From Chthoniobacteraceae bacterium (GTDB lineage Bacteria; Verrucomicrobiota; Verrucomicrobiia; Chthoniobacterales; Chthoniobacteraceae): a stretch of DNA of 64,000 nt. Numbering within the stretch: position 1 is the stretch's first letter; each line of letters starts with the position of its first letter. The stretch spans positions 62,001 to 126,000 of the forward strand of contig CANJNZ010000002.1 of assembly GCA_947476045.1 (NCBI GenBank), written 5' to 3'. The notes under the pieces were generated by a model. That model saw nothing but the letters and a program-made list of their open reading frames with translations. It searched no databases and was not told where the DNA came from. Positions 1,712-58,115 of this stretch are shown here, in pieces. Position numbers and translations under genes: made by a program.

Positions 1712-3020
1712 CCGTGGAAGTGCTACGCGAACTTTCTTGTTTGCTACCGCCCGTCACGACTTCGCGGACTACGCGATTGAGTTCAGTGAGTTCGTATGGC
1801 TTTGAGATCGCGCCATTAAAGCCGTGATCGCGGTAGTGAGACATGATGGGGTCGGAGTCGTAACCGCTGGAAATGATGGCTTTGATTTCTGGGTCAATTT
1901 TTCTCAAACGGGCCACAGCTTCGTCACCGCTCAAATCTCCTGGCAGGCTGAGGTCCGAAATTACGACTTGGTAGCGACGCCCTGTTTTCATCGCTTGTTC
2001 GCAAGCGAGCAGTGCGGCAGGCACGCTGGTCGCCTCGGTCACATCGTAACCCATCGAACTGAGTGCCGTGCAGACGAGGCCGCAGATGGCTTCTTCGTCG
2101 TCGAGGACGAGCACGCGTGGTTGTTTTTTCGCGGGCGTTGCGGGCGCAACGAGATTTGGCATTTGAACAATCGTGCCGGGCGCCGGTGTGGTATCGATAT
2201 CCCCCTCCGGTGTATCGTCGTTTTTGGTGAGAGATTGAAGTTTGCTGGTGATTTCCTGAGCGCGGAGGGCGTTCTTTTTGGCGCTCTTTGCACGCTGATG
2301 CGTGGCTGCGTCCTGCTCACCGGCCATGAGGATGAGTGACAGATTTCCGATGATCCCCGTGAGTTGGTTGTTAAGTTCGTGGCAATACTTGGAGACGGGG
2401 GCCGTGATGTCGCTTTTTGGCGCAGGAACGGAGGCAGCCTGCATGTCCTTTTCGTGGATGAGCACGAGATAGCTGGTGCTGTTTGTAAGTTCCACCTGTG
2501 AAAGAAATACTTCCACCTTCACATGCTGCCCGCCTGGGCGCATGGCGATTGACTCAAAACTGACCGGGCCACGCCGTGTCAATTCGCCCAGACAGAGGGG
2601 CTGTGGGATGAATTGTGTAAGTTCCAAACCCTCAAATTCTTTTCCCGTTATCGAAAACAATTCCTCTGCCGCCACATTGACCGAGCGAATGATACCGAGG
2701 GAGTCGAGCACTAGCACTGCGTCGTCCGTCATCGTAAGCAATGCGCGCAACTGTGCTTCGGAATTCTGTGATTGCACGCGGTGCTGCTCCTCCCGCGAGT
2801 GAATACGGCGGTAGAGTAGCCCGCAGGAGATGCCGGCTGTGATGCCGATTCCTGCCAGAGCACCCACCAGCGTGCCGTCCAAAGCAAATGAAGAATCCGC
2901 ATTTGGAAGAACCGAAAGCGCAGCCAGACATGAGGATAGGATGTTCTCTGTCAGGCATAGCTGTTTTCCGCAGTATTTCCTGAAGGTGCTGAATTGGGTC
3001 TGAAGTATCCTATAAAACAT
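1689..3020 (-). CDS. PAS-DHp-receiver protein lacking a kinase ATPase domain
   Basis: 443 residues. One hydrophobic segment (about 46-70) is followed by a PAS domain (about 90-190), a short region carrying HELNNQLTGIIGN with His214 that resembles the dimerisation/phosphoacceptor helix of a histidine kinase, a Pro/Thr-rich linker (about 268-298) and a complete receiver domain (about 301-420) with the acidic pair DDEE, phosphoacceptor Asp356 and Lys407. No N, G1 or G2 box of a HATPase domain is present between the H box and the receiver. It may therefore be a phosphorelay intermediate or sensory adaptor that depends on another kinase. It sits alone, convergent with the ligase-like gene. Confidence 0.75.
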   Translation of the reverse strand: MFYRILQTQFSTFRKYCGKQLCLTENILSSCLAALSVLPNADSSFALDGTLVGALAGIGITAGISCGLLYRRIHSREEQHRVQSQNSEAQLRALLTMTDDAVLVLDSLGIIRSVNVAAEELFSITGKEFEGLELTQFIPQPLCLGELTRRGPVSFESIAMRPGGQHVKVEVFLSQVELTNSTSYLVLIHEKDMQAASVPAPKSDITAPVSKYCHELNNQLTGIIGNLSLILMAGEQDAATHQRAKSAKKNALRAQEITSKLQSLTKNDDTPEGDIDTTPAPGTIVQMPNLVAPATPAKKQPRVLVLDDEEAICGLVCTALSSMGYDVTEATSVPAALLACEQAMKTGRRYQVVISDLSLPGDLSGDEAVARLRKIDPEIKAIISSGYDSDPIMSHYRDHGFNGAISKPYELTELNRVVREVVTGGSKQESSRSTSTESRKSKV

Positions 3021-3258
3021 GGCGAATAAGAGAATAGCCGTCTTCGTGCCACGATATGGAAATTATATTAAATACGGAAAATAAAGCTTTCTAGATCCCG
3101 GCGAATCGCGTCGTATTTCAAAAATATACCGACCTATATATTTTTAAATTAGCTGGTTATCAACAGCCAACCTATTTTCGGCGGGGTTGATTTGCAGCTT
3201 ATGATTTTTGAAATGGATTTTCCATTCGGGAGAGCAGGCTCAGCGGACTGGGTTCAAA

Positions 3259-4431
3259 TTATGGCTGCGGTGGCTTGCGGCTTGTGGTTTTGAGGCCGAG
3301 GACGCTCATGAAGAAACTGCTGCCGATGATTTGCAGGCCAAGGACGATGAGGGTGGTGGCTGCGATGATGCGGCGCAGGTTTTGCGCATAGGGCATAGCG
3401 CCAAAACCCGCTTGTTGCCAGAGAAACACGGCCCACGCGAGCAGTCCCGCACCGCCGAGCAACACGAACAAACCGACGATGAGTCCTTTTTCCAAACTGA
3501 ACCATTGGAAGATGCGGGCGAATTTTTCATCCGGTGGAAGCAGGCCTTCGGCGATGGCAAAGGTTTTAGTGAAGCAGGCGAAGGCGACAAGTTGCGCCCC
3601 GACAATGAGTGCACCACACGCAACGGCGAGCGTGCCGGCGTCGAATTGAACATGGCCCATCGAAACCGGGTCTGCGTAAATCAACGCCGCAGCGAGCGCA
3701 CCTGCTCCCGCGAGCAGCAGGCCGGGGACGAGGAAGAGCCAGCGCGGCGCGTAAAGGAGCATGAACCGGAGGTGTCGCCATCCATCCCGCCATGGGCGCA
3801 GATGCGGCGGGCGAGAGCGTCCGTCTTTGTGGAGCGTGATTGGCACCTCGGCGATGCGCATGGTGGCGAGGCTTGCTTTCATCACCATCTCGCTGGCGAA
3901 TTCCATGCCGGTGGTGACGAGTTTCATGTGCTCGTAGGCTTCTCGTGTGATGCCCCGCAGGCCGCAGTGAAAATCACGCACTGGGGTTTTGTAAAAGAGG
4001 CGTCCGATGAAACTGAGGACAGGATTTCCGAGCCAGCGGTTTTTCCATGGCATCGCCCCCGGCATGATGGTGCCGCCGCCCGCAGGCAGCCGGCAGCCCA
4101 TGACGAGGTCGTTGCCCGCGCGCAGTTTTTCCACGAAGCGTTTTGCCTCTCCGAAGTCGTAGCTCGCATCCGCATCACCCATGAGAATGTAGCGACCTCT
4201 AGCCGCTTCGACACCGCCACGCAATGCGCAGCCGTAGCCTTTTTCCGCGACGGGGACCACGCGTGCCCCAAGTTCCTCAGCGATGCGCTGCGAACCATCG
4301 GTAGAGCCGTTGTCTGCGACGATGATCTCGCCTTCAACGTCCGCATCGGCGAGGCCGCGCTTGGCCATAGCGATGCAAGTAGCGAGCGTCTCCGCCTCAT
4401 TGAGGCATGGCATAATGATGGAGAGTTCCAT
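3259..4431 (-). CDS. Membrane-associated GT2 family glycosyltransferase
   Basis: 390 residues. The N-terminal GT-A domain has the nucleotide-binding ADNGSTDG motif (about 39-46) and the metal-binding DADAS motif (about 86-90), like dolichol-/undecaprenyl-phosphate sugar transferases of family GT2. From about residue 222 there are four hydrophobic segments, so the enzyme is anchored in the inner membrane. The likely reaction is transfer of a sugar from a nucleotide donor to a polyprenyl phosphate. The donor cannot be told. The long plus-strand open frame opposite this gene is a GC-driven shadow. Confidence 0.82.
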   Translation of the reverse strand: MELSIIMPCLNEAETLATCIAMAKRGLADADVEGEIIVADNGSTDGSQRIAEELGARVVPVAEKGYGCALRGGVEAARGRYILMGDADASYDFGEAKRFVEKLRAGNDLVMGCRLPAGGGTIMPGAMPWKNRWLGNPVLSFIGRLFYKTPVRDFHCGLRGITREAYEHMKLVTTGMEFASEMVMKASLATMRIAEVPITLHKDGRSRPPHLRPWRDGWRHLRFMLLYAPRWLFLVPGLLLAGAGALAAALIYADPVSMGHVQFDAGTLAVACGALIVGAQLVAFACFTKTFAIAEGLLPPDEKFARIFQWFSLEKGLIVGLFVLLGGAGLLAWAVFLWQQAGFGAMPYAQNLRRIIAATTLIVLGLQIIGSSFFMSVLGLKTTSRKPPQP

Positions 4432-27553: not shown

Positions 27554-28771
27554 GTGGCCGATACCGACACATCCGAAACTGAAACCGAGCCGCCCCCTTC
27601 GCCCGAGGAGGTCGCGCGGCAGGCGTCGCTGCCTACCGTCGCAAGCTACATCGTCACGTTTTTGAAGCCGGAGATGCTGCATATTTACCGCCAGGTCTCG
27701 CGGCTCAAACACTGGCGCACGGTCGTATTTTGCCAGAAGCACGAAAACAGCAGGCGCTTTCCGATGCGAAACGTGCTCCTGGTGCCGAAGCCGCTCACGC
27801 ACCAGCTCCGCCGCTTTTGGCAAAAGACGATGAAGGACGAGCCTATCACGATCTATCGCTCGGAGGCGCGGCGTTTGAGGAAGGAGATCATCGCATGTGA
27901 TGCGAGTGTGCTGCATGTTTACTTCGGTCACATCGGGGTGCATTTACTGCCGCTGTTGGAGATTTCACCCGTGCCGGTGGTCGTAAGTTTTCACGGTGCA
28001 GATGCGCAGGTGGATATGGACAAGCCAAAGCATCGCGCGGCCATGCAGCGAATGCTCGGGCTGGCGAAATTGCTACTCGTGCGCAGTGAGTCGCTAGCGG
28101 AAAGACTTGTGGCGCTCGGCGCGACGCGGGAAAAGATTCGCATCCAACGCACGGGGATTCCGCTGCGGGAGATTACATTTACACAGCGCATGGCACCTGC
28201 GGATGGCGCGTGGAATTGCGTGCAGGCGTGCCGCTTGATTGCGAAGAAGGGACTGGCGACTGCGTTGCGAGCATTTGCGGAATTTTCGGTGCGGTATCCA
28301 AAGGCTACGCTCACGCTGGCTGGTAGCGGCCCGCTCTTGGATGATTTGTGGAGACTGGTGTTGAAGATTGGCCTGCAAAATCGCGTGAAGTTCGCAGGCT
28401 TCCTCACGCAGCAGGAATTGCGAATGCTTTATGCCAAGTCGCATCTATTTTTGCACCCGAGCGAGATGGGCGAAGATGGCGACCAGGAGGGAGTGCCAAA
28501 CTCGATGCTGGAAGCAATGGCCTGCGGCCTGCCCGTCATCGCGACGAATCACGGTGGCATTCCCGAGGCAGTCGTGCATGGCGTGAGCGGACTGCTCGTG
28601 TCTGAGCGCGACCATTTGGCTCTTGCGGGCGAAATGCTCGCACTCGCATCCAAGCCCGAAAATTACGCCGCGATGAGTGCGGCAGCGGCGCAACGGGTTG
28701 AGAAGGTATTTAATCTGAAAGTCACGGTCGCTGCGCTGGAGGGATTTTACGAAGAGGCGGCGGCAGAATGA
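27554..28771 (+). CDS. GT4 family glycosyltransferase
   Basis: 405 residues from a GTG at 27554; no in-frame ATG fits. A GT-B enzyme whose C-terminal donor-binding half contains KGLATALRAF, LTLAGSGPL, FAGFLTQ and the E-x7-E motif region EGVPNSMLEAMACGLPVIATNHGGIPE. It resembles colanic-acid/exopolysaccharide GT4 transferases. It probably adds a sugar to an envelope polysaccharide, together with kdsD and the other transferases nearby; donor and acceptor are unknown. Confidence 0.88.
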   Translation: MADTDTSETETEPPPSPEEVARQASLPTVASYIVTFLKPEMLHIYRQVSRLKHWRTVVFCQKHENSRRFPMRNVLLVPKPLTHQLRRFWQKTMKDEPITIYRSEARRLRKEIIACDASVLHVYFGHIGVHLLPLLEISPVPVVVSFHGADAQVDMDKPKHRAAMQRMLGLAKLLLVRSESLAERLVALGATREKIRIQRTGIPLREITFTQRMAPADGAWNCVQACRLIAKKGLATALRAFAEFSVRYPKATLTLAGSGPLLDDLWRLVLKIGLQNRVKFAGFLTQQELRMLYAKSHLFLHPSEMGEDGDQEGVPNSMLEAMACGLPVIATNHGGIPEAVVHGVSGLLVSERDHLALAGEMLALASKPENYAAMSAAAAQRVEKVFNLKVTVAALEGFYEEAAAE

Positions 28772-28825
28772 TTTCTTCCGAACGAACCTCTTCCCAATCC
28801 CACGCACAGTGCTACTTTCCCGACC

Positions 28826-30097
28826 ATGAAATTGCGGCTGACTCTCGCGTGCCTCACGATGTTCACTTTTTCCTCGCTCGCGCAGGACGGACCGAAGGCT
28901 GAGGCGAAAGAAGACAAGGATTCCCCCTACGATCAAATTCAGGCCATCGCGCGCGCGATGCAGATCATCCGGCAGGACTATGTGGACGAGAAAAAGGCGA
29001 GCTACGATCAACTCACTCGTGCTGCGTTGCGCGGGATGTTGCAGAGCCTCGATCCACATTCGCAATTCATGGAGCCGACGGGCTTCGAGGAGATGAAGGA
29101 GGATACGGACAGTCGTTTCGGCGGGCTCGGCGTGCATGTGACGGAGCGGAATGGGGACTTGATTGTGGTGTCGCCGATGGAGGATTCGCCGGGATTCAAG
29201 GCGGGGCTGATGCCGGGAGATCAGATCATCAAAATCAACGGACAGAGCGCGGAGAAGATGGAGTTGAGCGAGGCGGTGGAGAAGCTGCGCGGCGCGCCGG
29301 GCACGAAGGTGACGATGACGATCCTGCGTCCTGGCACGAAGGAGATTAAGGATTTCGAGATGGTGCGCGAGACGATCAAAGTGTGGAGCGTGAAGGACGC
29401 AAAGATGCTGCCGCCGGAACTGGCCGGAGAGATGAAGATCGGCTACGCGCGCATCACGCAGTTCAACGCTCCGACGGCGGAGGAACTCGCGAAGAAACTC
29501 GACGAGTTGGAGAAGCTGGGAATGCAGGGCTTCATCCTCGATTTGCGCTTCAACCCCGGCGGACTGATCAACTCCGCCGTGGACGTGGCGGGAATGTTTC
29601 TGCCGCCGGCGAGTGTCGTCTGCACCACGGAGGGGCGCACACCTTCGCAGAGCCGGAAATATACGGCGAATCCAGCGCTTCGGCGTCGGGGAAATTATCC
29701 GCTCGCGGTGCTCATCAACTACGGAAGTGCGAGCGGCAGTGAACTGACGGCAGGTGCGTTGAAGGACACTAACCGGGCGATTATCGTAGGGGAAACGAGT
29801 TTTGGAAAAGGCAGCGTGCAGAGCATTCTTCCGATGCCCGACGGCTCGGCGCTGCGATTGACGACGGCGAAATACTACACGCCAGCGCATCAGGTCATCC
29901 ACGAGCACGGCATCACGCCGACAATCCGCGCGACGATGACGCAGGATCAGGAACGGCAGTTGATGATTTCACGACGTGAAGATTTGACGGACGAGATACG
30001 GAAGAAAGACCTCGCAAATTTCCGCGACACGCAACTCGAACGTGCAGCGGATGCGCTGAAGGGCGTGCTGGTCTATGCGCAGAAAGTGGGGAAGTAA
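28826..30097 (+). CDS. S41 family carboxy-terminal processing protease
   Basis: 423 residues. Signal peptide (1-19), N-terminal cap helices (LDPHSQFM), a PDZ domain (about 90-180) with GLGVHV, then the S41 catalytic core with LDLRFNPGG, INYGSASGSE (nucleophile most likely Ser303 by spacing) and GETSFGKGSVQ (general base Lys328). It cleaves C termini of periplasmic proteins. The stop codon is three bases before tsaD, so the two are on one transcript. Confidence 0.93.
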   Translation: MKLRLTLACLTMFTFSSLAQDGPKAEAKEDKDSPYDQIQAIARAMQIIRQDYVDEKKASYDQLTRAALRGMLQSLDPHSQFMEPTGFEEMKEDTDSRFGGLGVHVTERNGDLIVVSPMEDSPGFKAGLMPGDQIIKINGQSAEKMELSEAVEKLRGAPGTKVTMTILRPGTKEIKDFEMVRETIKVWSVKDAKMLPPELAGEMKIGYARITQFNAPTAEELAKKLDELEKLGMQGFILDLRFNPGGLINSAVDVAGMFLPPASVVCTTEGRTPSQSRKYTANPALRRRGNYPLAVLINYGSASGSELTAGALKDTNRAIIVGETSFGKGSVQSILPMPDGSALRLTTAKYYTPAHQVIHEHGITPTIRATMTQDQERQLMISRREDLTDEIRKKDLANFRDTQLERAADALKGVLVYAQKVGK

Positions 30098-40388: not shown

Positions 40389-41459
40389 ATGACTACAGAA
40401 ACCAGCTCCAGCCATAGCAATCCTACTGAAAGCAAAGCAGGCAAGATCGACACCAGCGAGTGGAAGGATATCGTTTTAAAATTTCAGCAACCCTCCGTCG
40501 GGCGCGCTACGTGGCAACTCGTGAATACTATCGGCCCCATCGTGATTCTGTATTATCTCATGTATCACTGCATCCGTGAGTCCTACTGGCTCATGCTGCC
40601 CCTCGCCGTTCTTGCAGGTGGCTTCCAAATCCGCGCATTCATCATTTTCCACGATTGTGGCCACGGTTCATTTTTCAAATCACGCCTCGCCAACGACATC
40701 TTCGGTTTCATCACCGGGGTCATCACTTTCACGCCCTACTACCACTGGCGCTGGCAGCACTCCGTCCATCACGCCAGTTCCGGCGATCTCGACAGGCGCG
40801 GCGACGGCGACGTTTGGACGCTCACTGTTCAAGAATACCTCGAGGCATCCCGTTGGAAACGCTTTGCCTACCAACTTTCGCGGAATCCCTTCATTCTTTT
40901 CATCATCGCGCCCCTGTTCCTATTCATCGTGATGCACCGCTTCCCCACCGCCAAAGCCAGCAAGCGCGATCGCCGTTCCTGCTATTGGATGAACCTCGCT
41001 ATTTTCGCTTTGGTCGCTTCGCTCAGTTGGATTTTCGGTTTTAAACAATACGTCCTCATTCAACTCACCGTGATGACCGTCGCCGGTTCCGCAGGTGTCT
41101 GGCTCTTTTACGTGCAGCATCAATTTGAAGACACCTATTGGCAGCGTCGCGACGAGTGGGACTACACCGCAGCCGCATTGCAGGGCAGTTCGTTCTACAA
41201 ACTCCCGAAAATCCTCCAGTGGTTTTCCGGTAACATCGGCTTCCATCACATTCACCATCTCAGCCCTCGCATTCCGAACTATAACCTCGAACGCTGCCAC
41301 AAAGCTCATCCGCTTTTCCACAGCGTCAAACCCGTCACCCTTCGCAGCAGCTTGAAAGCTTTCGGCTACCGACTTTGGGACGAGCAAAATCAAAGACTCG
41401 TCGGCTACCGCTACCTTCGCGAACTCCGCCGCCAGCAAGCTGCCACCGCGCGAAACTGA
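40389..41459 (+). CDS. Membrane fatty acid desaturase
   Basis: 356 residues with four to six hydrophobic segments. Three histidine boxes of the acyl-lipid desaturase family are intact: HDCGH (88-92), HWRWQHSVHH (119-128) and HHIHH (286-290). These hold the di-iron centre. It introduces double bonds into membrane lipid acyl chains, probably for fluidity control at low temperature. The YVQHQFEDTYW and PNYNLERCHKAHP segments resemble Delta-12/omega-6-type bacterial enzymes, but regioselectivity is not determined. Confidence 0.92.
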   Translation: MTTETSSSHSNPTESKAGKIDTSEWKDIVLKFQQPSVGRATWQLVNTIGPIVILYYLMYHCIRESYWLMLPLAVLAGGFQIRAFIIFHDCGHGSFFKSRLANDIFGFITGVITFTPYYHWRWQHSVHHASSGDLDRRGDGDVWTLTVQEYLEASRWKRFAYQLSRNPFILFIIAPLFLFIVMHRFPTAKASKRDRRSCYWMNLAIFALVASLSWIFGFKQYVLIQLTVMTVAGSAGVWLFYVQHQFEDTYWQRRDEWDYTAAALQGSSFYKLPKILQWFSGNIGFHHIHHLSPRIPNYNLERCHKAHPLFHSVKPVTLRSSLKAFGYRLWDEQNQRLVGYRYLRELRRQQAATARN

Positions 41460-41468
41460 CGCCATCCC

Positions 41469-42419
41469 ATGCATCCCTGCAAGGCGCTGCTGATCAGTTT
41501 GCTTTTTGCCACGACTGGCGTCGCCCAGCAGACTGCAAGCGATTTAGTCGGCACCCTGCGAAATCGCTATAAAGCGGAATCTGCCCAGCTTGATGCATCA
41601 GAGGCTTCAGCAAAGGCTCAGTTTACGGCCGCATATACCAAGGAACTGACGCGTGCGCGCGACATGGCGCAGGCCAAAGGCGACCTCGATGCGGTTATTC
41701 AAATCAACGGACTAATCACAGCAGCGAGCACTGGAGCCATTGAAGCACCGCCAAATACGGCCGCTTTGCCATTGCGTGCTGCATACACTAATTACGAACG
41801 CAATTTAAAAGCCGCAATCAAGCCGCTTTCCAGCAGACGTCAGTTATTGGATGCAAACCTTTCGCGTGAACTCGCCACACTCGAGCAGCAATATACGCGC
41901 AGTGGATTAATTGAAGCAGCCAAGCTGGCTCGCGAAGCAAGAATTGAGGTGGCTAAGCGTATCTCTGATGCGAAAGAGTATGCTGCGATAAACACTGATG
42001 CGGAGGTTATCTCCGAGATGAGTGGTGCGGTGCTCACATCAGGAGGGAGTCGCACTTCAACAAAAAGCTATAAAGCACCCGTAGAAGTTGAATGGCGTCT
42101 AGAAACTACCGGAGATTTTCGTATAGCCTACGCGTGTAAGCAGATTGCTCTAAACTATCATAATACCTCCGAACTTTGCATAGAGGGTGGGCCTGTTGAA
42201 GGCTGGCAAAGTAAAAAGGATTCAGGGGAGACACCTCTAAACCAACTGATAAGTGTTAAATTGAATATTCAACCCACGAGGATGACGCTTTTCGTCGAAG
42301 GTAAAGAGCGCGCTAAGTGGAAAGGTGATTTTTCCAATGTAAATCAGCCTGTAGGAATAATGAACGTGCAGGATTCTACGGTAAAAGTTAAACAGGTGAT
42401 TGTGCGAAAGCTTAAATAA
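41469..42419 (+). CDS. Secreted protein with helical N-terminal half and beta-rich C-terminal half
   Basis: 316 residues. Signal peptide (1-19, ...TTGVAQQ), then a helical, Ala/Glu-rich region (about 20-185) with probable coiled coil, then a domain with alternating strands (about 195-316) ending VKVKQVIVRKLK, which looks like a concanavalin/laminin-type or 3-keto-disaccharide-hydrolase-type beta sandwich. The second half is more AT-rich than its neighbours. Nine bases after the desaturase stop. Function unknown. Confidence 0.65.
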   Translation: MHPCKALLISLLFATTGVAQQTASDLVGTLRNRYKAESAQLDASEASAKAQFTAAYTKELTRARDMAQAKGDLDAVIQINGLITAASTGAIEAPPNTAALPLRAAYTNYERNLKAAIKPLSSRRQLLDANLSRELATLEQQYTRSGLIEAAKLAREARIEVAKRISDAKEYAAINTDAEVISEMSGAVLTSGGSRTSTKSYKAPVEVEWRLETTGDFRIAYACKQIALNYHNTSELCIEGGPVEGWQSKKDSGETPLNQLISVKLNIQPTRMTLFVEGKERAKWKGDFSNVNQPVGIMNVQDSTVKVKQVIVRKLK

Positions 42420-47340: not shown

Positions 47341-47902
47341 ATGAAAGCCGCCGTCATCCGTTTTCCGGGATCGAATTGTGATCAGGACTGCCATCTTGTT
47401 TTGAAGGAGTTTGGTTTTGCGACCGACTTCGTCTGGCACAAGGAGGACAGCGTTGCGGGCTACGATTTGATCGTGCTGCCGGGCGGGTTCAGCTACGGCG
47501 ATTACCTTCGCTGCGGAGCCATCGCACGTTTTTCGCCGGTGATGAAATCGGTCATCGAACAGGCGAAGCGCGGCGTGCTGGTGATGGGCATTTGCAATGG
47601 CTTCCAGATTCTTTGCGAAAGCGGACTGCTCCCCGGCGCACTCATTCGCAACCGCGATTTGCATTTCATCTGCGAGCACGTGCGGCTTCGCGTGGAAAAT
47701 ACGAGCAACCCATTTCTTTCCGCCGCCCAAGTGGGGCAGGTGCTGAATGTGCCCATCGCGCACGGGGAGGGGAGCTACACTGCCGACGCAGCGACGCTAG
47801 CTTCGCTGAATGCAGAGGGTCGCGTGCTCGTTCGCTATTGCGATGTGAAGGGCAAAACGGGCGATGCTACGAATCCAAACGGTGCGCTGGAAAACATCGC
47901 GG
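47341..47902 (+). other. PurQ glutaminase catalytic region (within purQ)
   Basis: This stretch contains the class I glutamine amidotransferase nucleophile Cys85 in VMGICNGFQ and the [12 protein letters not shown] motif. It is a domain mark inside the purQ gene entry that follows. Confidence 0.6.
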
Positions 47903-48042
47903 GCATTTGCAACACGACGCGCAATGTTTTCGGCCTCATGCCGCATCCCGAGCGCGCTTGTGATGCACATCTCGGGAGCACGGATGGCCGTGTGTTTTTC
48001 CAAAGCATCCTCGCAACGCTCGGCAACGCGCAGGCGGCGTAA
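47341..48042 (+). CDS. purQ: Phosphoribosylformylglycinamidine synthase subunit PurQ
   Basis: 233 residues. Class I glutamine amidotransferase with [26 protein letters not shown], nucleophile Cys85 and the C-terminal LMPHPERA His/Glu pair. It supplies ammonia to PurL for the fourth step of purine synthesis. Three bases after purS, so the two are on one transcript. A GC-rich hairpin follows at 48055. Confidence 0.95.
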
Positions 48043-48054
48043 CTGCTTATTTTT

Positions 48055-48071
48055 CGCTCGCGGGGCGAGCG
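48055..48071 (+). terminator. Candidate terminator hairpin after purQ
   Basis: A seven-base stem CGCTCGC/GCGAGCG with a GGG loop lies 12 bases after the purQ stop, between convergent genes. On the plus strand the following Ts come after CAGG, so it is not a textbook terminator; it may serve both directions. Confidence 0.4.
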
Positions 48072-48089
48072 CAGGTTTTCCACGCGAAA

Positions 48090-49697
48090 TCAGTATCGCC
48101 AGCCTTCGAGGTCGGCGCGGGGTGGCGCGGTCTTTTTAATCTGGCGCGTCATTTTCTCCAAAAGTTCGGCAGCGCTCTGGCCCCATCCGTGTGGCGCGCG
48201 ACGTTTAAAAATGATTTCACCGGTGAATTTGGGATTATCGGCGGTCGAGAGGAAGGTGTTTAGTTTTTCGACGGCGTTGTTGAGGTAGTAGGAGTCCATG
48301 TCACCGACATAGATGTTGAGTTTGTCGGCGACTTTCGGACCGAGTGCGGCCCAGTTCGTTTCGAGGATGAGGCGGATGTCGTATTTTTTCCACTGCTCCG
48401 CGACTCGCCTGTCTATTTGCCCAGTGCTCTTGTCCCAAATGCGCTGCGGATATCCGTCTTTTCCGACTGGCGAATATGTCGCCTCCCAGATGTCCCACTG
48501 CCCGCCGGAGCGCGACTTGTCGCCAACGACCAGTTCGTAGTGATTCTCGTCTTCCATCATGGAAAGGATGTTGCCGTCGGTTTTGCGTTCGTTGGGGCGG
48601 GGGACTTTCATCCACTCGTTGTGAACGTGGTATGCATTTTCGTCTTCGTAGATGTTGACGATTTGGTGGCAGGTAAAATCGAGCGCGTCCGGGCAACTGG
48701 CAAAACATCCGCCGAAAAAATCGGGATGGACAACCTGATGGGCAACCGCGATCCAGCCGCCTGTGGATCCGCCGGTGAGGATGCGGGCCCATGGCTGTGC
48801 GATGGCGCGGAACTGTTTTTCGATGGCGGGGATGAGTTCGTAGAGAATGGCGTCTCCGTAGGGTCCGTTGTTCTCGGAGTTCACGCCGTAGGAGTTGTCG
48901 TAGTAGGGAGATGGATGTTGGAGTGAGACGTAGAGGAAACGCGGAGTTCTGTTGTCGAGCCAGAGTTTGTCGAAATCACCGCCCTTTCCGAAGCCTCCGG
49001 GAGCTTCAAGCGTGAAGTGTTCGTGGATGTAGTTGACGGGAAATTTTACATCCGGGTGCAAGGCGTAGTCCCGTGGCAGAAGCACCGTCGCCCCCAGGTA
49101 AATGGGTTGTCCCCACCACTTCGAGAGTATGTCGCTCTTGATGCGAATGCGCTTCACCATCCCGGTGTCGGCGGGAATTTGAATGGGCGGGATGATTTTG
49201 TCGGCGACGAGCCGGATGGGGCGTGAGGATTTAGGATTAAAGGTGATCTGGACAGGTGTGCCGAAAAGGTTTCCCGGCGAACGTTTCCAATCCTGACCTT
49301 CCCATTGATCCATGTGCAGCCAGACGGTCTTTCCGTCGGCGCGCGGGAAGCGTGTGTAGATGTTCACAAAAGGCTGCACCCAATATTTCCCCGCAGGCAA
49401 ATCACGCAGGCTTGCGAGCGGATAGCTGCGACTCTTTCCATCAATCACGGCGGCAATACCGGGCTTGAGTGCTTGAATACATGTCGAAAACAGCGGGACG
49501 CCGGTCGTTGATGTTTGCTCGACGGGCGTGCGATCGTTTTCGCGACTCACGGCGACGTAAACCATGCCGGTGACGGCTTCGGGATGTGCGGCCTTTGGAA
49601 ATGAAACCTCGAATCGCGGGTTGGCGGCCATCGCCCTGCAAGCGACAAGCCCCAAAGCCACGAGGCAGCGCGCGATGAGGCGAGCTGGATGACTCAT
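48090..49697 (-). CDS. Secreted alpha/beta-hydrolase-fold (esterase-like) protein
   Basis: 535 residues from the ATG at 49697, which starts a signal peptide (1-24, ...CRAMAA) and overlaps the stop of the upstream ATPase reading frame as ATGA. After an N-terminal beta-rich domain (about 25-190), an esterase D-like hydrolase domain follows with NYIHEHF and the nucleophile elbow GGSTGG (Ser311). A C-terminal DSYYLNNAVE region continues the fold. It may hydrolyse an ester on a polysaccharide, as feruloyl-esterase-like proteins do, but the substrate is not known. Confidence 0.75.
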   Translation of the reverse strand: MSHPARLIARCLVALGLVACRAMAANPRFEVSFPKAAHPEAVTGMVYVAVSRENDRTPVEQTSTTGVPLFSTCIQALKPGIAAVIDGKSRSYPLASLRDLPAGKYWVQPFVNIYTRFPRADGKTVWLHMDQWEGQDWKRSPGNLFGTPVQITFNPKSSRPIRLVADKIIPPIQIPADTGMVKRIRIKSDILSKWWGQPIYLGATVLLPRDYALHPDVKFPVNYIHEHFTLEAPGGFGKGGDFDKLWLDNRTPRFLYVSLQHPSPYYDNSYGVNSENNGPYGDAILYELIPAIEKQFRAIAQPWARILTGGSTGGWIAVAHQVVHPDFFGGCFASCPDALDFTCHQIVNIYEDENAYHVHNEWMKVPRPNERKTDGNILSMMEDENHYELVVGDKSRSGGQWDIWEATYSPVGKDGYPQRIWDKSTGQIDRRVAEQWKKYDIRLILETNWAALGPKVADKLNIYVGDMDSYYLNNAVEKLNTFLSTADNPKFTGEIIFKRRAPHGWGQSAAELLEKMTRQIKKTAPPRADLEGWRY

Positions 49698-50343
49698 TTC
49701 CGCTTGCGACCCGGCTTGCGAGGTGCGCTCTCTTTTTTTGCCTCTGCGGAAAGTTGCGAGACGATGCTTTCCAGCGCGGCGAGGCCGAAACTGATTTTTT
49801 GAAGAACGAGGGATTGTGCGGCACGAGGATGAAGCGCGGATGCCGCCCCCACAGCGAGCGAAGTTTTGCATCCAGCCGCACTGCTTCCTCAAGCGACTCA
49901 TTGCGAATCGGGTTGCCGCCTTCGATGGATGCACCGCCTATCGCCGCGGTCTCGAAAAAGATCACCGCATCGTAGCGGCTCAGTTCTGCTTCGAGCGTCG
50001 TGCCTACGAATTCAAAATAGTCGCCATCGCCGCCCGGCCAGTATGCCGCGCCGTCCACTGTGCCCCGGTCGCAAAGCAAAGTCCGCCCCGGATAGAGCGC
50101 CGCCTGCACGTCCTCCAGATTCCTCTGCACATTAAATATCGCCGTCTGCGCGTAACTCAGCGCGTGTCCTTCGCCCGAGCGGGGAAAGCCGCCTTGAAAA
50201 AGAATCGTCGCAGCCTCGGGGACAATCACCACGGCATTGCCAATCTCGCGCCGGAAAAGATCCGCCGCCGTTGTCTTTCCTCCGCCGGGGCCGCCTGTCA
50301 GAACAATCCGTCTGCATTTAGGAGGCGTAGGTTTTGTTTTCAT
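49694..50343 (-). CDS. AAA-type ATPase with apparent -1 frameshift at an A6 tract
   Basis: The ATG at 50343 starts a P-loop protein: GGPGGGKTT (17-25), then PEAATILFQGGFPR, CDRGTVDGAAYWPG and VPHNPSFFKK, matching the NadR/Ttd14-like AAA_28 family. In the zero frame the sequence then runs into a non-conserved basic tail. One base earlier in frame (rereading one A of the A6 tract at 49795-49800) gives a natural end, ISFGLAALESIVSQLS... to KPGRKRK-stop, with the stop at 49694-49696 overlapping the esterase ATG as ATGA. The product would then be 216 residues. A sequencing or assembly error, a fixed mutation or recoding cannot be told apart here. Confidence 0.78.
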
Positions 50344-50482: not shown

Positions 50483-51376
50483 ATGCGCACATCAATCCTC
50501 GCATTTATTCTATTCTCTTTTGCGGCTTTCGGTGGGGATGCGTTGCCGGATATTTATCGTGAGGCGAAGGCTGCACTCGAAGCCGGTGACGCGGAGAAGG
50601 CTGTCGCACTGCTAGAGCCCGCGCTCCGCGATGCGAAGGGAGGAGAGATTGCGCCTGCGCAACTGGCGCTGGGGGTTGCTTATTTGCGGGTGGGGAAAGC
50701 GGAGGCTGCGGTGCCGTTTTTGGAGAAAGCTTCGGTGGCTTTCGCGGGCACGCCACAGGTGGCGAGTGTGCTGGCGTCGCTCGGCGATGCTTTGCGGGTG
50801 ACGGGGGAGGCGGAGACTGCACGGCGTGTTTACAAGGAGGCGACGGAGGCTGCGCCGGATTCGGTGAATGCGAAGTATGCGATGGCGCGGATTGCGGAGA
50901 TGGATGGCGAGAAGTTTGAGGCGGGGAAGGAGTATGCGAAGGCGGCGGAGCGTTACCTCGCGGCGGGGGATGCGTTGCTTGCGCTCGCTGCCGGGGATGC
51001 GGGATATTATGCGGCGGCGCGTGTGCTTTATGAAAAAGTCGCAAAGGGCAGCGAGAAGGCCGCGCCGGGTAAGGACTGGCGCGGGGAGCCGACTGCGCGC
51101 GCGGTTTTTTCGCTCGGCGAAGTGGAGCGGGCGCAGGGACATTTTCCGGAGGCGATTGCCTATTACCAGCGGACTTTTGTGAGTTGGGTGAAGTATCTGC
51201 ACTGGTGCGCACAGGCCTATCTGCGCGCGGCGGAGTGCATGGAGAAACTGGGAAAGCGCGACTTTGCGAAGGCGCATCTGCGCGAGTTGGTGCGCAAGCA
51301 GCAGAAGTTCGGGAAGCTGCCGGAATACGAGCAGGCGAAGAAGCAGTTGCGGGCGTGGGGGGATGAGATTCAATGA
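50483..51376 (+). CDS. Secreted TPR protein upstream of ExbB-ExbD genes
   Basis: 297 residues from the ATG at 50483, which starts a signal peptide (1-18). The rest is a tandem series of TPR-like helices, about six repeats (for example AQLALGVAYLRVGKAEAAVPFLEKA). It probably sits in the periplasm as a scaffold. The ExbB-like gene follows after a 129-base gap on the same strand, so a role in the same energised complex is possible but not shown. Confidence 0.8.
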   Translation: MRTSILAFILFSFAAFGGDALPDIYREAKAALEAGDAEKAVALLEPALRDAKGGEIAPAQLALGVAYLRVGKAEAAVPFLEKASVAFAGTPQVASVLASLGDALRVTGEAETARRVYKEATEAAPDSVNAKYAMARIAEMDGEKFEAGKEYAKAAERYLAAGDALLALAAGDAGYYAAARVLYEKVAKGSEKAAPGKDWRGEPTARAVFSLGEVERAQGHFPEAIAYYQRTFVSWVKYLHWCAQAYLRAAECMEKLGKRDFAKAHLRELVRKQQKFGKLPEYEQAKKQLRAWGDEIQ

Positions 51377-51505
51377 CGGATGGTGGATGGCGAATGATGG
51401 AGGGAAGGGTGAAGGGTAGAGAAATTCCTTGTTACCCGCACAAATTCCCCTCGCCAAATGCGTGGCAACTTCGCAGATTCCCCGAACTTTTCCCGAATAC
51501 TCCAC

Positions 51506-52378
51506 ATGAAACTCCGCTCACTCGCCGCACTTTTCACAGCCGCATTCATTGCTTTTGCGCCGCTTACCGCTGCATTCGCTCAGGATGCCAAGCCCGCCGA
51601 AGCCGCCAAGCCCACTACTGACGCTGTCGTCGCCGAGGCTGCAGCCGATGCCGCGAAGAATGAGCCAAAGGCGCACGATAAGAGCATCTGGCAGCACATC
51701 AAGGACGGCGGTCCGATCATGATTTTCATCGGCATCTGCTCGGTGGCCACGCTTTATCTTGTCGTGGATGGGCTGCTGCGCGTGACGAATTACAAAAAGA
51801 CCATCCCAGCGATGCACCTCACAGGTTTGAGGAATCTTTTCCGTTCTGGTGACTACGTGTCTGCCTCCAAGTTTTGCAAAAATAACGTTTCGCCTTTGAC
51901 GGATGTCTGCCGCGCCGGCCTCTCCATGGCGGGCGAGGGCAAGTCCGCCGTCGAGGAGGCGATTTATGCCGAGGTAGCCAAGCAGAATGCGAATATGCAG
52001 TATTTCATCAGCTACCTTTCCGTCATCGGCGTTTGCACCCCGATGATTGGATTGCTCGGCACGGTGTTCGGCATGATCAGCGCCTTCGCCACACTGGGCA
52101 CCAGCGGCATCGGCGACCCGAGCAAGCTCTCCGCCGCCATCGGCGAAGTGCTCATCGCGACCGCGAGCGGACTGCTCATCGCGATCCCGGCATTCTTTAG
52201 CTTTTACTGGCTGCGCAATCGCGCCGCCAAAATCATCCACAACCTCCAGGAGACCATCGGATCGCTCTATCGCAAGATGCCCTATGAGTATCTTGCCGGT
52301 GCGCACCTCGGCGACGAGGAGCTTTACGCCGCAACACCAAATTGGGTGCAGCAGGCCGAGCAAACTCCAGCCGTCTAA
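51506..52378 (+). CDS. exbB: MotA/TolQ/ExbB-type proton channel protein with N-terminal signal peptide
   Basis: 290 residues from the ATG at 51506. A signal peptide (1-27, ...AFAQD) and an Ala-rich periplasmic extension precede the first channel helix (about 67-90). The TolQ-type pore region with AIGVCTPMIGLLGTVFGMISAF-like helices and GEVLIATASGLLIAIPAFF follows. The motif set of ExbB/TolQ is complete. It pairs with the ExbD proteins next to it to turn the proton gradient into outer-membrane work. The cleavable extension is a Bacteroidota/Verrucomicrobiota-like feature. Confidence 0.88.
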   Translation: MKLRSLAALFTAAFIAFAPLTAAFAQDAKPAEAAKPTTDAVVAEAAADAAKNEPKAHDKSIWQHIKDGGPIMIFIGICSVATLYLVVDGLLRVTNYKKTIPAMHLTGLRNLFRSGDYVSASKFCKNNVSPLTDVCRAGLSMAGEGKSAVEEAIYAEVAKQNANMQYFISYLSVIGVCTPMIGLLGTVFGMISAFATLGTSGIGDPSKLSAAIGEVLIATASGLLIAIPAFFSFYWLRNRAAKIIHNLQETIGSLYRKMPYEYLAGAHLGDEELYAATPNWVQQAEQTPAV

Positions 52379-57358: not shown

Positions 57359-57368
57359 TCGCAATGTG

Positions 57369-58115
57369 ATGCACTCCCACGCTCTCCAACTTAAAAACAT
57401 CACCGTGAGCTACGCGCGCATCCCAGCGTTGCATCATATCGGCTTCGAAGTGTGTTGCGGTCAATGCGTCGCGCTGCTCGGGCCGAATGGCGCAGGAAAG
57501 ACAACGCTGCTCAAGACGCTCGCGGGCCTCGTCGAGCGCGAAAGCGGCACGATTCATTTCCATGGACGAGAAGTGCGTGGAGCCACGCCCGACATCGCCT
57601 ATTTGCCGCAGCGTGGGCAGATTGACTGGGACTTTCCGACGACCGTGCGCGGCCTCGTCGAAATGGGGCGCTACCTCCGCCTCGGCTGGTGGCGCACCTA
57701 TGGTGAAAAAGACAAAGTCGCCGTGGACAGCGCAATTGCCGCGATGAAGCTCGAATCGTTGCAGGAGCGACAAATCAGTGCGCTCAGTGGTGGCCAGCAG
57801 CAGCGGGCATTTCTCGCCAGGGCGCTCGCGCAGGAGGCGCACGTGCTGTTGCTCGACGAGCCATTTACCGGTCTCGACAAACCAAATCAGGACAACCTCA
57901 AACTCACACTCCGCCAGCTTCGAGGGCAGGGGAAATTGCTCATCGTCTCGCATCACGATCTTTCCAGCGTGCGTGAGATTTTTGATCGGGTCGTTCTGCT
58001 GAATGGAGAACTCATCGCCGCCGGAGAAACCTCAGTCGCTTTCACAGAAGAAAACATCCACCGCGCCTACGAGACGCGCGTTTTCGCTGCCGTGGATCAC
58101 GGAGTCGCCATATGA
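57369..58115 (+). CDS. znuC: Metal ABC transporter ATP-binding protein
   Basis: 248 residues from the ATG at 57369. Walker A GPNGAGKTT, Q loop YLPQRGQIDW, signature LSGGQQQR, Walker B VLLLDEP and the switch His in VSHHDL are all present. The ATPase subunit of a cluster 9-type zinc/manganese importer. Overlaps the permease gene by four bases. An upstream frame inside the preceding gene is not adopted. Confidence 0.93.
   Translation: MHSHALQLKNITVSYARIPALHHIGFEVCCGQCVALLGPNGAGKTTLLKTLAGLVERESGTIHFHGREVRGATPDIAYLPQRGQIDWDFPTTVRGLVEMGRYLRLGWWRTYGEKDKVAVDSAIAAMKLESLQERQISALSGGQQQRAFLARALAQEAHVLLLDEPFTGLDKPNQDNLKLTLRQLRGQGKLLIVSHHDLSSVREIFDRVVLLNGELIAAGETSVAFTEENIHRAYETRVFAAVDHGVAI

Follow-up and report, generated by a model that had tools for sequence, protein, structure and literature searches.

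Gene layout and the frame break

In the window (the whole stretch of 64,000 nucleotides analyzed here), the reading frame of a kinase-like gene is broken at a run of six As shortly before a putative esterase gene. The question raised by this locus is whether the break is a site of recoding, a fresh mutation or an error in the deposited sequence. By direct reading, the kinase-like gene occupies 50343 (its ATG) to 49694 of the minus strand, which at the break reads ...CCC TCG TTC TTC AAA AAA TCA..., the A6 tract being the complement of T6 at 49795-49800 on the plus strand. The features of the locus are as follows.

49795 to 50343, minus strand: intact AAA_28 P-loop kinase-like core of 183 codons, ending in FFKK (from the ORF list, the Pfam AAA_28 match and a pN/pS of 0.07 against congener G006)
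49795 to 49800, minus strand: A6 tract and site of the frame break; a G is missing relative to both closest congeners, which read AAAAAG ATC (from homolog comparison and DNA alignment)
49694 to 49797, minus strand: rest of the ancestral kinase frame, -1 relative to the core, with the conserved final helix and a variable basic tail
49441 to 49794, minus strand: zero-frame readthrough tail of 117 aa, a meaningless sequence with a 257-base overlap with the esterase gene
48090 to 49697, minus strand: secreted putative esterase gene, 535 aa, between the kinase gene and purQ (Pfam Esterase)
47341 to 48042, plus strand: purQ (phosphoribosylformylglycinamidine synthase I, named from sequence), convergent

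As originally predicted, the zero frame overruns the end of the family into a basic tail that overlaps the esterase gene. The product is 300 aa long and its stop, at 49441-49443, lies 257 bases within the esterase gene; the tail has no relative and matches nothing. A -1 move at A6 yields instead a protein of 216 aa with the C terminus ISFGLAALESIVSQLS...GRKRK, the full end of which is ISFGLAALESIVSQLSAEAKKESAPRKPGRKRK. The prediction that this shift restores a family-like C terminus was borne out, since 33 codons are clearly homologous to those of relatives. Because these codons are followed by a stop placed as in G006, the restored terminus is not a chance occurrence. The claimed overlap between the shifted-frame TGA (49694-49696) and the ATG of the esterase gene (49695-49697) is likewise exact, the two forming ATGA at 49694-49697. 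An A7 run is also present at 49733-49739, past the conserved helix in the kinase's variable tail; a shift there would restore no family C terminus.

The break site in homologous genes

The sample searched for the kinase gene consisted of 97 genomes: the source genome (G000) and members of its own genus, family and order. The gene was found in every congener except G003 and nowhere else in the sampled family or order. In all eight congeners that carry it, the frame is open for 205-216 codons and continuous across the break site, where the codons are AAA AAG ATC in seven cases and AAG AAA ATC in one. A scan of GTDB genome contigs added relatives that, going by their record titles, belong to Verrucomicrobiota, Myxococcota, Bdellovibrio and Planctomycetota; the best 80 of 425 were combined with loci from the other searches to give 88 non-window rows (including a few duplicates). 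These were read codon by codon, and none of the 88 had a frame shift at the break site. The triplets found there include AAA AAG ATC (28 rows), AAG AAG ATC (16) and AAA AAA ATC (13), along with others; AAA AAA TCA occurs in the window alone. The conservation of A6 versus A7 in related kinase genes had been proposed as a check on the locus. The A6 break proved not to be conserved, and A7 is present in 14 of the 88 rows, in frame every time.

The kinase-like family is patchily distributed, being present in nearly all genomes of the genus and missing elsewhere in the family and order as sampled, with relatives of about 60-73% identity in Myxococcota, Bdellovibrio and Planctomycetota records among the best 80 of 425. 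This patchy spread, with relatives in distant phyla, suggests horizontal transfer.

The two closest congeners, G006 and G001, have proteins 93% and 87% identical to that of the window, G006 being the closest relative as judged by the kinase gene. Both read TTC TTC AAA AAG ATC at the site, and when their DNA is aligned with the window, the latter is shorter by exactly one base at the same place in both alignments. The gene thus has intact orthologs and a one-base indel in a single genome, the pattern of a singleton indel. Since 88 related sequences pass the break site without a shift, the loss of this base is an ordinary event, either a recent mutation or an assembly error, and no new decoding trick. 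Our main reading, to which we assign a probability of about 0.94, is that the break is a lineage-specific, unprogrammed loss of a single base near the 3' end of the gene and not conserved recoding.

The kinase core differs from that of G006 by 45 synonymous and 9 nonsynonymous changes (pN/pS 0.07). The first 16 codons of the shifted frame differ from G006 only synonymously, and there has therefore been no decay since the break. The dominance of synonymous change both in the core and in these codons implies that the break is recent or not real. As judged from the sequences, an undecayed frame would fit equally well with an error, with a mutation of very recent date or with a frame that is still used.

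Family and predicted fold of the kinase-like protein

The kinase core matches the Pfam family AAA_28 (PF13521) with an E-value of 4.9e-20 and 72.8 bits, above the curated cut-off of 27, and has the Walker A sequence GGPGGGKTT. The original description of the protein as an AAA-type ATPase reflects the Pfam label only. A structure model was built on the intact G006 homolog, not on the window protein (mean pLDDT 87.2), and in a Foldseek comparison its predicted fold groups with nucleoside/nucleotide kinases and NadR, not with AAA+ ATPases. The likeness of the AAA_28 protein to these enzymes lies in the overall fold of the model. There was no NCBIfam match and a PDB search by sequence gave no convincing solved relative, so neither search pointed to a specific function.

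The last element of the G006 model is a long helix (residues 180-213) that starts at FFKK, and two residues of the helix, G187 and L188, are invariant in an alignment of 19 sequences. On the basis of this model, loss of the final helix probably impairs the putative kinase. This bears on the suggestion that the 300-aa zero-frame protein, with its changed C terminus, represents a new functional form. The frame does stay open for 117 codons beyond the break, but the tail is the conserved helix read out of frame followed by the esterase gene read out of frame, with no relative, and the protein loses helix 180-213 of the family model. We consider such a new form the least probable of all the explanations discussed here.

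The interval between the kinase gene and purQ

The protein encoded downstream has a weak match to Pfam Esterase (E-value 1.8e-5). It has no close homolog in the genus or family; across 387 genomes of the phylum, the best match comes from another family of the class and is about 43% identical. An inspection of the esterase side of the junction in relatives had also been proposed, and neither G006 nor G001 has an esterase gene beside the kinase gene, at the kinase-purQ site. In G006 the kinase and purQ are direct neighbors, the stop of the kinase gene lying 9 bases from the convergent purQ stop with no gene between; in G001 the interval holds an OprB-type porin-like gene (named by eye from its translation). 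The interval is thus a variable slot in the three congeners: empty in G006, with a porin-like gene in G001 and with a secreted esterase gene in the window. Its coordinates are 48043-49693 in the window, about 1990-2003 in locus L038 and 2735-4141 in locus L032.

By this comparison, the esterase gene is a recent insertion between the kinase gene and purQ in the lineage of the window, and the ATGA junction is not ancestral coupling. The original prediction had taken the coupling as a sign that the shifted frame is, or recently was, real. That frame is indeed real, or was so very recently, but the overlap counts for less than had been supposed because the junction is lineage-specific and arose when the esterase gene reached the kinase stop codon. 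With the start of the esterase set exactly at that stop, the overlap marks the old end of the frame well and is no sign that the two genes form a conserved coupled pair. It should be noted that when a stop and a start codon overlap exactly in a shifted frame, this is a good marker of a former true frame but not, alone, an argument for recoding. Comparison with the congeners reveals slip tract and gene junction alike as recent accidents.

Frame breaks elsewhere in the window

The window was searched with open reading frames taken from the corresponding regions of G001 and G006, which gave 52 non-overlapping gene models over about 57 kb; cancelling paired indels were ignored as alignment noise. 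The kinase gene was the only one of the 52 with an in-gene frame break, so the contig is not generally prone to indels. Apparent breaks at 57363-57369 and 50604-51750 were rejected as antisense to conserved genes, and one at 41219-41482 as an out-of-frame upstream extension. At 28822 the window has C3 where both closest congeners have C4; this position is intergenic (the flanking genes end at 28771 and start at 28826) and no frame is broken. No second copy of the kinase locus was found in a scan of viral contigs or in a plasmid search.

These results bear on the possibility of a consensus error in assembly or sequencing, by which the true gene would be uninterrupted and the deposited contig short by one base. 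Such an error would explain the undecayed frame after the break, and the homopolymer context is suitable for it: A7 is found in 14 homolog rows, so that the error could have consisted in shortening an unseen A7 allele. The source genome is, moreover, in 123 contigs. Against this, the kinase gene holds the sole frame break among the compared models in 64 kb, and the other A/T runs of six or more in the window (50 in all) show no comparable gene damage. One isolated local error could still have arisen in a contig not generally prone to indels, and we regard an error as a serious contender, somewhat short of even odds. A genuine new mutation in the population sampled is placed slightly ahead of it and is our modestly favored account of the single-base loss.

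Origin of the A6 tract

Under the reading of a single-base loss, the ancestral kinase gene would have read TTC TTC AAA AAG ATC and continued without a break into the C-terminal helix. Once the G had gone, five As would meet the next A to form the A6 tract, and the zero frame would then enter the 117-residue nonsense tail overlapping the newly arrived esterase gene. The 300-aa product would presumably be impaired through its missing final helix, and any translational coupling of the esterase to the kinase would be lost. Because the loss of a single G makes the tract, A6 is a product of the deletion and not a conserved slip site. A two-step route, with A7 arising first and one A then being lost, is possible and less parsimonious. 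The original prediction had singled out the slippery AAAAAA as a feature of note; A or T runs of exactly six bases occur 39 times in the 64 kb and longer ones 11 times, and the tract in itself is not unusual.

The choice between error, mutation and recoding was rightly framed from the outset, and it is the recoding option that has fared poorly. It would consist of slippage at A6, either by the ribosome (-1 frameshifting) or during transcription, giving the 216-residue protein and keeping its coupling to the esterase. The tract follows FFKK, AAA could re-pair with AAA in the P site, the shifted frame shows no decay and its TGA overlaps the esterase start. However, a shift is neither needed nor shown by any of the 88 homolog rows, and the closest relatives carry AAAAAG, which is no slip site, the A6 existing only through the missing base. 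As the break is not conserved in orthologs, the defining test of recoding fails. The context of A6 in frame, C AAA AAA (from TTC AAA AAA TCA), is no slippery heptamer of the form X XXY YYZ. No downstream stimulatory structure was detected, the 71 nt 3' of the site folding no better than shuffled sequences (z-score 0.42), and the esterase junction is itself lineage-specific. Functional recoding at this site is thus very unlikely in our estimation.

Low-level spontaneous slippage at A6 could nevertheless make some full-length kinase. That such slippage at the deletion-made tract keeps the gene working, so that one mutation caused the lesion and also partly remedied it, is a reading to which we give equally little credence.

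Comparison with known systems

Transcriptional slippage typically involves A/T runs of about nine or more, and the run here is six. For many bacteria, selection against A/T runs in coding regions becomes visible only when the runs reach about nine, although in certain bacteria slippage may occur on shorter ones (Baranov et al. 2005, PMC1088944), and transcriptional insertion errors grow exponentially with run length (PMC5574713). The A-run slippage of Thermus dnaX resembles the present case in having an A tract at the break, where one added A restores the frame. The runs there are of nine (Baranov et al. 2005, PMC1088944), whereas the kinase gene has A6 in DNA of about 56-60% G+C and its tract is not conserved.

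A closer parallel is found in the singleton frame breaks described by Antonov et al. (2013, PMC3711429). Such breaks, validated by BLASTp and Pfam, are put down to sequencing error or indel mutation, and a position at the 3' end favors indel mutation. The kinase break, too, is supported by homology and Pfam, occurs in one genome only and lies near the 3' end, and it differs from these singletons in nothing material. In annotation the kinase gene should be treated as frameshifted and the start of the esterase gene placed at 49697.
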